A stretch of DNA of 64,000 nt from Cribrihabitans marinus (lineage in GTDB: Bacteria > Pseudomonadota > Alphaproteobacteria > Rhodobacterales > Rhodobacteraceae), in NCBI RefSeq assembly GCF_900109035.1, contig NZ_FNYD01000002.1:310001-374000 (forward strand), given 5' to 3'. The notes under the pieces are model-generated. The model did not search any database, was not told the DNA's origin, and saw only the letters and a list, made by a program, of their open reading frames with translations. The position numbers were made by a program, and so were the translations under genes. Of the stretch, positions 21,364-23,985 are shown in pieces; positions within the stretch are counted from its first letter, which is position 1; each line of letters begins with the position of its first letter.

Positions 21364-21477
21364 GCGATCTCTCCGCGGTTGGGCGCCGATCATCGGGGAT
21401 TTTCGGCAAAGGGCAAGGGCCGGCCGGACCCGGCTCTTGACGCAGGCACCGGGGCGACGTAAACGCCACAGGGACGA

Positions 21478-21534
21478 CCGTGGCGATTTGTTACCGGATT
21501 GCGGGCCACGCTAAACAACACCGCTAAAAGGTCA
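21478..21534 (+). ncRNA. SAM-II riboswitch (SAM_alpha) upstream of metZ
   Basis: S-adenosylmethionine-sensing leader. P1 forms from CGTGG (21479-21483) and CCACG (21506-21510). The first loop has the conserved GATTTG and GG.TTGC, and the 3' part has CGCTAAACAA and CGCTAAAA (21510-21529), all matching the SAM-II consensus known from alphaproteobacterial metA, metX and metZ leaders. The pseudoknot P2 can form between ACC (21493-21495) and GGT (21530-21532). Binding of SAM would reduce metZ expression. The identification rests on consensus and pairing seen by eye. Confidence 0.92.
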
Positions 21535-21539
21535 GGATG

Positions 21540-21576
21540 AAAGCCCCCTTTCGCTTGACCGCGTTGGGGCTTTTTT
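21540..21576 (+). terminator. Intrinsic terminator in the metZ leader
   Basis: AAAGCCCC (21540-21547) pairs with GGGGCTTT (21566-21573), and a run of six T follows (21571-21576). It lies 6 nt after the SAM-II aptamer and 36 nt before the metZ ATG, so it is probably the expression platform. TGACC in its loop (21556-21560) is complementary to GGTCA (21530-21534) of the aptamer's P2 strand, suggesting a switch between P2 and an alternative hairpin. Confidence 0.8.
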
Positions 21577-21612: not shown

Positions 21613-22812
21613 ATGAGCAAGGATTGGAACAAGCGCACGCAGGCGGTGCATGGCGGCACCCGCCGCAGCCAGTGGGGCGAGGTGAGCGAGGCGATTTTCC
21701 TGACCCAGGGCTTTGTCTATGACGACGCCGAACAGGCCGAGGCGCGGTTCATCGAAAGCGGCCCGGACGAGTTCATCTATGCCCGCTATGGCAACCCCAC
21801 GGTGCGGATGTTCGAAGAGCGCATCGCCGCGCTGGAAGGGGCCGAGGACGCCTTTGCCACCGCCAGCGGAATGGCCGCGGTCAGCGGTGCGCTGACCGCC
21901 ATGCTCAAGGCCGGGGATCACGTGGTCTCGGCCCGGGCGCTGTTCGGCTCGTGCCTCTATATCCTGGAGAACGTGCTGTCGCGGTTCGGGGTCGAGGTGA
22001 CCTTTGTGGACGGCACCGACCTGGATCAGTGGCGTGCGGCGATGCGCCCGGACACGCGGGCGGTGTTCTTTGAATCGATGTCGAACCCGACCCTGGAGGT
22101 AATCGATATCGAGGCGGTTTCGGCCATCGCGCATGAGGTCGGGGCCACGGTCATCGTCGACAATGTGTTTTCGACGCCGGTCTATTCGCGCGCCATCGAA
22201 CAGGGGGCGGATGTCGTGGTCTATTCCGCGACCAAGCATATCGACGGGCAGGGGCGCGCGCTGGGCGGTATCATCCTGGGTACGCGCGACTTTATCCGCA
22301 AGACGGTCGAGCCCTACATGAAACATACCGGCGGCGCGCTCAGCCCGTTCAACGCCTGGATCCTGCTCAAGGGGCTGGAGACGATGGCGCTGCGCGTGAA
22401 CGCGCAGACGGACAGCGCCGGACGCATCGCGGCGGCGCTGGAGGGGCATCCGGCGCTGGCCCGCACACTCTATCCCGGGCTGGACGGGCATCCGCAGGCG
22501 GCGCTGGTGCAGCGGCAGCTTGGCGGGCGGGGCGGCACGGTTCTGTCGCTGGATTTCGCGGGTGGCAAGGACGCGGCCTTCGCCTTTCTCAACGCCATGT
22601 CGATCCCGGTGATCTCGAACAACCTTGGCGACGCAAAGTCGATCGCGACGCATCCGGCGACAACCACCCACCAGCGGCTCAGCGAGGATCAGCGCAGCGA
22701 ACTCGGCATCACGCCCGGGCTGGTGCGCTTCTCGGTGGGGCTTGAGGATACCGATGACCTGATTGCCGATCTGCGCAATGCGCTGGACGCCGCGATGGCG
22801 CAGAACATCTGA
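21613..22812 (+). CDS. metZ: O-succinylhomoserine sulfhydrylase
   Basis: PLP enzyme of methionine synthesis (399 aa) that forms homocysteine directly from O-succinylhomoserine and sulfide. The Cys/Met-metabolism PLP fold is clear: YARYGNPTVRMFEERIAALEG, ASGMAAVSGALTAMLKAGDH, VVDNVFSTP-like IVDNVFSTPVYS, and the PLP lysine Lys208 in YSATKHIDGQG. The C-terminal VRFSVGLEDTDDLIADL is conserved. The family also includes metY and metB; metZ is preferred from the overall pattern and the SAM-II leader. The ATG 21613 follows GAGGAA. Controlled by the riboswitch and terminator just upstream. Confidence 0.93.
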   Translation: MSKDWNKRTQAVHGGTRRSQWGEVSEAIFLTQGFVYDDAEQAEARFIESGPDEFIYARYGNPTVRMFEERIAALEGAEDAFATASGMAAVSGALTAMLKAGDHVVSARALFGSCLYILENVLSRFGVEVTFVDGTDLDQWRAAMRPDTRAVFFESMSNPTLEVIDIEAVSAIAHEVGATVIVDNVFSTPVYSRAIEQGADVVVYSATKHIDGQGRALGGIILGTRDFIRKTVEPYMKHTGGALSPFNAWILLKGLETMALRVNAQTDSAGRIAAALEGHPALARTLYPGLDGHPQAALVQRQLGGRGGTVLSLDFAGGKDAAFAFLNAMSIPVISNNLGDAKSIATHPATTTHQRLSEDQRSELGITPGLVRFSVGLEDTDDLIADLRNALDAAMAQNI

Positions 22813-22881
22813 CGGGCTGGACTGGACCGGGATAATCGGCATCCTACCTCTGGACCGGATCGCGCTGAAAAGGATGTGATG

Positions 22882-23985
22882 ATGAACCTTCATGCCGGTG
22901 GCCTTGACGACACCCCCGACCGCGATGCCGCGCAGGCGGCACTGGATACGCTGCGGGCGTGGGCCGCCTCGGCCAGCCCGGCCGAAATTGCGCAGCTCGA
23001 TCCGGCGGTCGCGCGGCTGGTGCCCGATCTGGTGCCGCTGAACTATCCCGCGCTGTCGCGGGACTATCCCCACGATTTCCGGCCCGACGAGGCCTATCGC
23101 GCCACGCTGCCCGACCTGCAGAACGGGCCGACCAGCCTGATCCGCGGAGCGCGGCAGCAGATCCAGCATGTCGGCATCTCGAATTTCCGCCTGCCGATCC
23201 GCTTTCATCGCAAGGATGGCAAGGACCTGACGCTGGAAACCTCAGTGACCGGTACCGTCAGCCTTGAGGCCGGCAAGAAGGGCATCAACATGAGCCGCAT
23301 CATGCGGTCCTTCTACAAGCATGCCGAGCGCACGTTCAGTTTCGAGGTGATCGAGGCGGCGCTGGACGACTACATGACCGATCTCGACAGTTTCGACGCA
23401 CGGATCCAGATGCGGTTCTCATATCCCGACCGGATCGAGAGCCTGCGGTCGGGGCTGACCGGCTACCAGTATTACGACATCGCTCTGGAACTGGTGGAGA
23501 AGGGCGGGGTGCGCCAGAAGATCATGCATCTGGACTATGTCTATTCCTCGACCTGCCCCTGTTCGCTGGAGTTGAGCGAACATGCCCGGGCGCAGCGCGG
23601 CCAGTTGGCAACGCCGCATTCGCAGCGGTCGGTGGCGCGGATCTCGGTGCAGGTGAATTGCGACACCGATTGCCTGTGGTTCGAGGATCTGATCGCGCTG
23701 TGCCGCCGGGCGGTGCCGACCGAAACCCAGGTCATGGTCAAGCGCGAGGACGAACAGGCCTTTGCCGAGCTGAATGCGGCCAACCCGATCTTTGTCGAGG
23801 ACGCGGCACGGCTCTTCTGCGAGCAGTTGCAGGCCGATCACCATATCGGTGATTTCCGCGTGGTGGCCAGCCACCAGGAAAGCCTGCACAGCCACGATGC
23901 CGTATCGATTCTCACCCAGGGCGAGACCTTTGCCGCCGACAGCCTCGATCCCCGGCTGTTTGCAAGCCTGTTCCACGTGGGTTGA
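22882..23985 (+). CDS. folE2: GTP cyclohydrolase I type 2 (FolE2)
   Basis: Converts GTP to 7,8-dihydroneopterin triphosphate, the first step of folate (and tetrahydrobiopterin-type) synthesis; 367 aa, family-typical. Landmarks: VGISNFRLPIRF, SLEAGKKGINMSRIMRSFY, and STCPCSLELSEH, which contains the conserved active-site Cys. FolE2 differs from FolE in not needing zinc and can be Zur-controlled in some bacteria; no Zur box is evident here. Three adjacent starts exist (GTG 22876, ATG 22879, ATG 22882); 22882 has the best spacing from AAAAGGA. Located 69 nt after metZ, possibly in the same transcript. Confidence 0.95.
   Translation: MNLHAGGLDDTPDRDAAQAALDTLRAWAASASPAEIAQLDPAVARLVPDLVPLNYPALSRDYPHDFRPDEAYRATLPDLQNGPTSLIRGARQQIQHVGISNFRLPIRFHRKDGKDLTLETSVTGTVSLEAGKKGINMSRIMRSFYKHAERTFSFEVIEAALDDYMTDLDSFDARIQMRFSYPDRIESLRSGLTGYQYYDIALELVEKGGVRQKIMHLDYVYSSTCPCSLELSEHARAQRGQLATPHSQRSVARISVQVNCDTDCLWFEDLIALCRRAVPTETQVMVKREDEQAFAELNAANPIFVEDAARLFCEQLQADHHIGDFRVVASHQESLHSHDAVSILTQGETFAADSLDPRLFASLFHVG

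Follow-up and report, generated by a model that had tools for sequence, protein, structure and literature searches.

A SAM-II riboswitch upstream of metZ in Cribrihabitans marinus with a predicted antiterminator built on the P2 pseudoknot strand

The leader described here is located in a 64,000-nucleotide stretch of Cribrihabitans marinus DNA (the window). One Rfam match at gathering thresholds is present in the 64-kb window, RF00521 (SAM_alpha/SAM-II), on the forward strand at positions 21470–21547 (57 bits vs a cut-off of 36, E 3.6e-10). It spans the full length of the model (1–79), runs into the expression platform and is the only RF00521 match in the whole genome. The regulated gene, metZ (O-succinylhomoserine sulfhydrylase), occupies 21613–22812 of the same strand (TIGR01325, 544.9 bits vs a cut-off of 510.05). 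The open frame of GTP cyclohydrolase FolE2 (forward strand, 22876–23985; NF010200, 290.9 bits vs a cut-off of 215) begins 63 bases 3′ of metZ. Since both genes lie on one strand at this short distance, a SAM-controlled terminator could govern a folate-pathway enzyme too, with FolE2 possibly expressed by read-through from metZ.

A putative promoter (TTGACG, a 17-base spacer and a weak −10 element, TAAACG) can be recognized in the sequence at 21437–21465 of the forward strand; it is absent from the list of the promoter scan of the window. In the leaders of relatives, TTG[AC] clusters 33–36 bases 5′ of P1 (125 occurrences, 189 leaders), a peak in line with the promoter placement described in Corbino 2005 (PMC1273637). 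The TTGACG of the window, 41 bases 5′ of P1, agrees with this position only roughly, and because of this distance and the poor −10 element the start site is only approximate.

The sequence features of the SAM-II class present in the leader are P1, the P2 complementarity, the GCTAAA element and the conserved loop. P1 is formed by CGTGGC (21479–21484) and GCCACG (21505–21510), as given by the Rfam structure line. The outer pairs of the P2 pseudoknot, seen in the sequence, join ACC (21493–21495) with GGT (21530–21532), and the Rfam alignment places the conserved GCTAAA of the SAM-II binding core at 21523–21528, all on the forward strand. A methionine/SAM synthesis gene, metZ, follows 3′ of the aptamer. 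The original prediction, which had called the element SAM-II and placed ACC at 21493–21495, GGTCA at 21530–21534 and TGACC at 21556–21560, is thus borne out in its identity, by the RF00521 score of 57 bits vs 36 and by the position of metZ, and in its coordinates. The leader is a SAM-II riboswitch by sequence, and SAM binding is predicted.

An intrinsic terminator is situated between the aptamer and metZ, as would be the case for an OFF riboswitch attenuating transcription. Nine pairs are formed by 21539–21547 with 21566–21574 of the forward strand, and the T tract occupies 21571–21576. The predicted stability is −17.7 kcal/mol (z −3.5), and 1 of 200 shuffles is equally stable. In this fold TTGACC (21555–21560) constitutes a six-base loop closed by CGC/GCG. 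The terminator is absent from the list of the pattern scanner, whose loop limit is 8 bases.

The complementarity of GGTCA (21530–21534) to TGACC (21556–21560) in the terminator loop, which had been pointed out in the original prediction, is found both in the sequence and in the predicted folds. It forms the base of a longer structure: the five pairs extend to 13, taking in all of the terminator 5′ arm (21539–21547), a point absent from the original prediction. This antiterminator hairpin (21530–21560, forward strand), supported by folding and by recurrence in relatives, pairs 21530–21536 (GGTCAGG) with 21554–21560 (CTTGACC) and 21538–21543 (TGAAAG) with 21548–21553 (CTTTCG), A21537 being bulged and CCCC forming the loop. 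Folding of 21526–21560 gives −14.4 kcal/mol (z −4.1), a stability reached by 0 of 200 shuffles. The antiterminator and the terminator are mutually exclusive, because the former holds the whole 5′ arm of the latter; the SAM-bound aptamer is excluded as well, because the first three antiterminator pairs use the P2 strand. By prediction, formation of this single hairpin is therefore incompatible with the ligand-bound aptamer as well as with the terminator, as in OFF riboswitches. When the GGT of P2 and both terminator arms were kept and the remaining bases shuffled, an equally stable hairpin appeared in 50 of 20,000 cases, and in 24 of 20,000 when GGT also had to be fully paired; TGACC arose in the shuffled loop in 1.0% of shuffles.

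The same complementarity could be realized in another way, with the terminator staying intact and GGTCA pairing with its TTGACC loop in a loop–tail pseudoknot. The exposure of TTGACC as a six-base terminator loop would permit this, but the pairing runs eight more pairs into the terminator 5′ arm and loop, and many of these extra pairs are kept in relatives. Such a pseudoknot, which would be the literal sense of the pairing disturbing the terminator, is considered extremely improbable in view of the extended and retained pairs. The antiterminator reading is preferred, and the two-state switch that had been proposed is supported in silico, as judged by fold energies, order of synthesis and recurrence; it is modified in that the pairing closes a full antiterminator, which goes beyond a mere disturbance.

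Folding of the growing transcript was performed from 21473 without pseudoknots, the SAM-bound state being mimicked by blocking 21485–21504 and 21521–21532. In the free RNA the predicted probability of the antiterminator is 0.99–1.00 over 21560–21570 and 0.67 at 21572, and that of the terminator reaches 0.91 at 21574. In the blocked RNA the terminator already has 0.92 at 21570, and a truncated antiterminator devoid of its first three pairs persists until 21568. Blocking GGT in the window changes the antiterminator energy from −15.9 to −7.8 kcal/mol. The elements are synthesized in the order aptamer, antiterminator, terminator. When 21478–21576 is folded alone, the best fold (−31.4 kcal/mol) and the terminator-forced fold (−31.1 kcal/mol) are 0.3 kcal/mol apart. 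At equilibrium the SAM-free full-length RNA favours the terminator, and for this reason the ‘on’ state would have to win kinetically.

These values also bear on the possibility that the terminator is constitutive and mainly yields a short SAM-II-containing RNA, termination being little dependent on SAM. The terminator probability of 0.91 at 21574 in full-length free RNA is compatible with this, as is the S. meliloti metA terminator 3′ of SAM-II, for which Scheuer 2022 (PMC9373788) reports neither a predicted SAM response nor a predictable antiterminator driven by SAM-II. A constitutive terminator, however, leaves the loop–P2 complementarity of the relatives unexplained, and this explanation is regarded as very unlikely. 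Attenuation is favoured by the behaviour of the 98 leaders of the window type, i.e., those with CTTGACC or a close variant. Their antiterminator has a mean energy of −14.6 kcal/mol, which becomes −8.3 with three P2 bases blocked and −6.1 with five, vs a mean of −17.4 for the terminator. In 61 of the 98 free leaders the antiterminator reaches the terminator energy to within 3 kcal/mol; with the first three P2 bases blocked, 0 of the 98 do so.

SAM-II is widespread among relatives: in a family set of 394 genomes, one per genus, 322 have a match at E 0.001, and so do 141 of the 289 genomes of a class sample. Leaders were collected in two ways. The metZ sample comprised the best 80 metZ homologues in named genomes, picked regardless of their leaders; the second sample comprised 149 of 150 places among the RF00521 matches listed plus the window's own, and is skewed to the best-scoring aptamers. 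The 230 loci gave 220 distinct leaders (9 duplicates; L215 unparsed), and a terminator was called in 190 of them. Some of the 30 leaders without a call (L081 and L087) plainly have a terminator, so the caller is conservative. In the metZ sample the caller assigned a terminator to 72 of 79 leaders, and 66 of these 72 carry a P2-anchored hairpin that encloses the terminator 5′ arm entirely, against an expectation of 27.8 from shuffles that left the arms unchanged. The corresponding figure for the second sample is 64 of 118 (34.4 expected). Leaders of the window type number 66 in the metZ sample (79 leaders) and 32 in the second sample (141 leaders). R1, a covariance model restricted to the platform and trained on leaders that include some of the genomes later searched, has matches in 212 of the 394 genomes at E 0.1 and, among the matches listed, in at least 124 of the 394 at E 1e-4.

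The class sample was represented by 30 of its top-scoring leaders, of which 25 were parsed and 21 have a T tract within 75 bases; these T tracts are putative terminators, and the 21 include near relatives (e.g., L269 and L272). Pairing of the P2 strand was counted from its first G, with G-U allowed, over the first three quarters of the stretch preceding the T tract. At least five pairs are possible in 18 of the 21 leaders (7.0 expected from shuffles). The P2 partners vary (CTGACC, CCGGCC, CCGACC), and L277 has GGCCGG opposite CCGGCC. By eye, the P2 partner in L264, L267, L283 and others is the terminator 5′ arm itself; the window type differs from these in that the partner lies in the terminator loop.

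The co-variation called for by the original prediction was assessed on 83 distinct platforms of the window type (alignment A1), in which pairing on the 3′ side is inflated because they were selected by a 3′-side motif. In total, 84.4% of the antiterminator cells pair, vs 30–60% when the strands are slid, and neither this percentage nor the covariation score was equalled in 500 shuffles. The outer helix is paired in 91.8% of cells and helix 2 in 72.5% despite imperfect register. Double changes occur at 7 of the 13 pairs, a number reached by 105 of 500 shuffles (mean 5.7). At the third P2 base and its partner, A1 contains U-A in 52, U-G in 28 and C-G in 3 platforms. With this partner left free (motif CGC.TGNC[CT]), the pair is kept in 87 of 87 cases (U-A 52, U-G 34, C-G 1), and with the looser motif TTGNC[CT] in 94 of 103. 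RNAalifold applied to A1 recovered the five outer pairs and none of the others. At the terminator the MAFFT alignment has lost register: 70.0% of cells pair as given and 87.0% when slid by one. The inner helix is off register too.

Beyond the window type, in the 71 leaders whose P2 is other than GGTCA, their own loops pair no better than swapped loops (3109 of 5000 and 5484 of 10,000 permutations were equally good), and no subgroup shows an excess. When all 190 leaders are taken together, own loops do pair better (0 of 5000 and 0 of 10,000 permutations equally good), an excess that stems from the contrast of GGTCA with the rest and may have simple kinship as its source. Transplantation of bases 10–12, intended as a further control, does not provide a clean null because it also favoured the own sequence. 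Taken with the five outer pairs of RNAalifold, the null swap controls confine good support for the exact hairpin to the window type. In that type pairing survives sequence change, few double changes occur, and the co-variation is modest.

SAM-II could alternatively control translation, with P2 masking a ribosome-binding site and the downstream hairpin being incidental. Action through the ribosome-binding site is held for other SAM-II elements, including those of Scheuer 2022 (PMC9373788), where a Shine–Dalgarno sequence in the S. meliloti metA riboswitch serves a start 74 bases downstream. The P2 strand of the window contains AAGG, an ATG follows at 21537, and an ATG occurs within 8 bases 3′ of GGNNN in 62 of the 98 window-type leaders; the frame is open across the 80 codons scanned in 13 of these 62, with L032, L033 and L039 among those reaching metZ in frame. 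The frame starting at 21537 in the window, however, ends at 20 codons and is out of the metZ frame, and over the 62 leaders frames range from 1 to 80 codons with no common length. The metZ start is 36 bases from the T tract, so placed that the ribosome-binding site of metZ in the window lies outside P2, and a terminator is called in 72 of the 79 metZ-sample leaders. Translational control of metZ by P2 was rejected because of position, and a leader peptide from the ATG at 21537 by its 20 codons and its frame; as a whole, the translational explanation is judged very unlikely. The frames that run from an ATG after P2 into metZ (L032, L033, L039) recall S. meliloti metA with its two start codons, from which the window differs.

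The preferred reading, that this SAM-II riboswitch switches metZ off by transcription attenuation, is very probably correct as modelled. From the sequence, the fold energies and the recurrence we infer SAM binding, read-through and the kinetics, as follows. RNA polymerase would start a few bases 5′ of P1. The aptamer would be complete at about 21532, and SAM could then lock GGT (21530–21532) in P2. Without SAM, GGTCAGG–CTTGACC and TGAAAG–CTTTCG would pair once 21560 is made; the terminator 5′ arm would be trapped, and the polymerase could pass the T tract into metZ. In the presence of SAM the antiterminator would lose its base and be weakened to −7.8 kcal/mol (−15.9 when complete); emergence of 21566–21570 would then let the terminator form (−17.4 kcal/mol). 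The ‘on’ state would be kinetic and decided before about 21574.

Aptamers of relatives show variation in the linker between P1 and GCTAAA. It has 9–12 bases in 239 of 254 parsed leaders; in the other 15 it is replaced by 20–53 bases folding into a hairpin, mostly followed by an A run (L065, L072, L082, L089, L291, L292, L293, L297, L298, L299, L300, L302, L304, L305 and L306; L297 is the same place as L251). Many of these long-linker leaders surfaced through the R1 model. An Rfam scan of 20 loci (the 15 long-linker leaders with L097, L110, L294, L295 and L296) gave no match above the cut-off in 19, eight of which have a weaker RF00521 match (best 32.4 vs 36 bits); L110 alone exceeds the cut-off, through an aptamer with a normal linker. 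In ten genomes R1 matched strongly and RF00521 gave no match; by eye, none of them shows signs of another aptamer: eight are long-linker SAM-II (L291, L292, L293, L295, L297, L298, L299, L300), and the remaining two (L294 and L296) are diverged. L301, L294 and L296 (positions ~290–400 of the reading strand) have a window-type platform 5′ of a metZ-like gene and an aptamer that looks decayed or strongly diverged. In addition, 17 otherwise normal-looking SAM-II aptamers (L016, L069, L109, L134, L151, L160, L166, L175, L183, L184, L196, L198, L206, L213, L216, L225, L226) have GCTTT instead of the conserved GATTT just inside P1.

A transcriptional SAM-II element had originally been presented as an unusual example, which does not agree with the literature. 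Corbino 2005 (PMC1273637) describes putative terminators 3′ of P2 in many representatives, and the 2007 survey (PMC2258182) lists SAM-II mostly with terminators. The SAM-II/metA motif of Corbino 2005 (PMC1273637) resembles the window leader in P1, P2, a possible promoter a few bases 5′ of P1 and the proposed OFF-switch logic, and many of its representatives have terminators separating P2 from the gene; P2 of the A. tumefaciens metA element was examined there through disruptive and compensatory variants. Unlike the present description, the main text of that paper does not contain the word ‘antiterminator’. In a comparative study, SAM_alpha was found 5′ of metY in 26 of 30 alphaproteobacterial genomes. 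The passages covered from a SAM-II/SAM-V paper offer nothing on terminators apart from a reference.

The closest described system is the metZ leader of S. meliloti (Scheuer 2022, PMC9373788), with SAM-II 5′ of metZ and an intrinsic terminator predicted upon SAM binding; a terminated RNA of ~100 nt was observed. The text of that paper mentions an antiterminator once, in stating that a SAM-II-driven one was not predictable for metA. Compared with S. meliloti metZ as described in that text, the leader of the window differs in having a stand-alone hairpin whose P2 strand finds its partner in the terminator loop. The arrangement also follows the general OFF riboswitches of Barrick and Breaker 2007 (PMC2258182), where the ligand removes an antiterminator and the terminator forms, and where SAM-II is described as reaching its platform via the distal pseudoknot. 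Beyond that account, the strand common to the aptamer and the antiterminator is named here as the 3′ strand of the P2 pseudoknot. The SAM-II mode of expression control was still unestablished according to the 2007 survey (PMC2258182), and effects of SAM-II on gene expression were unstudied prior to Scheuer 2022 (PMC9373788), as stated there. In a literature search covering titles and abstract openings, none of the papers listed described this antiterminator.

The switch is of a known kind, and its mechanism is better resolved here than in the original prediction. A broader reading, which we hold to be somewhat better than an even chance, combines three elements: the P2 3′ strand as the 5′ half of an antiterminator across Alphaproteobacteria, a stand-alone 13-pair kinetic switch of the Roseobacter type, and the same platform serving an accessory-hairpin sub-form of SAM-II. 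The same three to five bases would then be contested by ligand binding and antitermination, the decision falling within a few bases (about 21570–21574), and the sub-form would carry its accessory hairpin in the P1–P2 linker, below the Rfam cut-off. Pairing of the P2 strand with an early part of the terminator is offered as a rule for checking in further SAM-II leaders. A SAM-II leader with short, near-isoenergetic states that occurs in many genera would be a simple test system for the co-transcriptional competition between a pseudoknot and an antiterminator.
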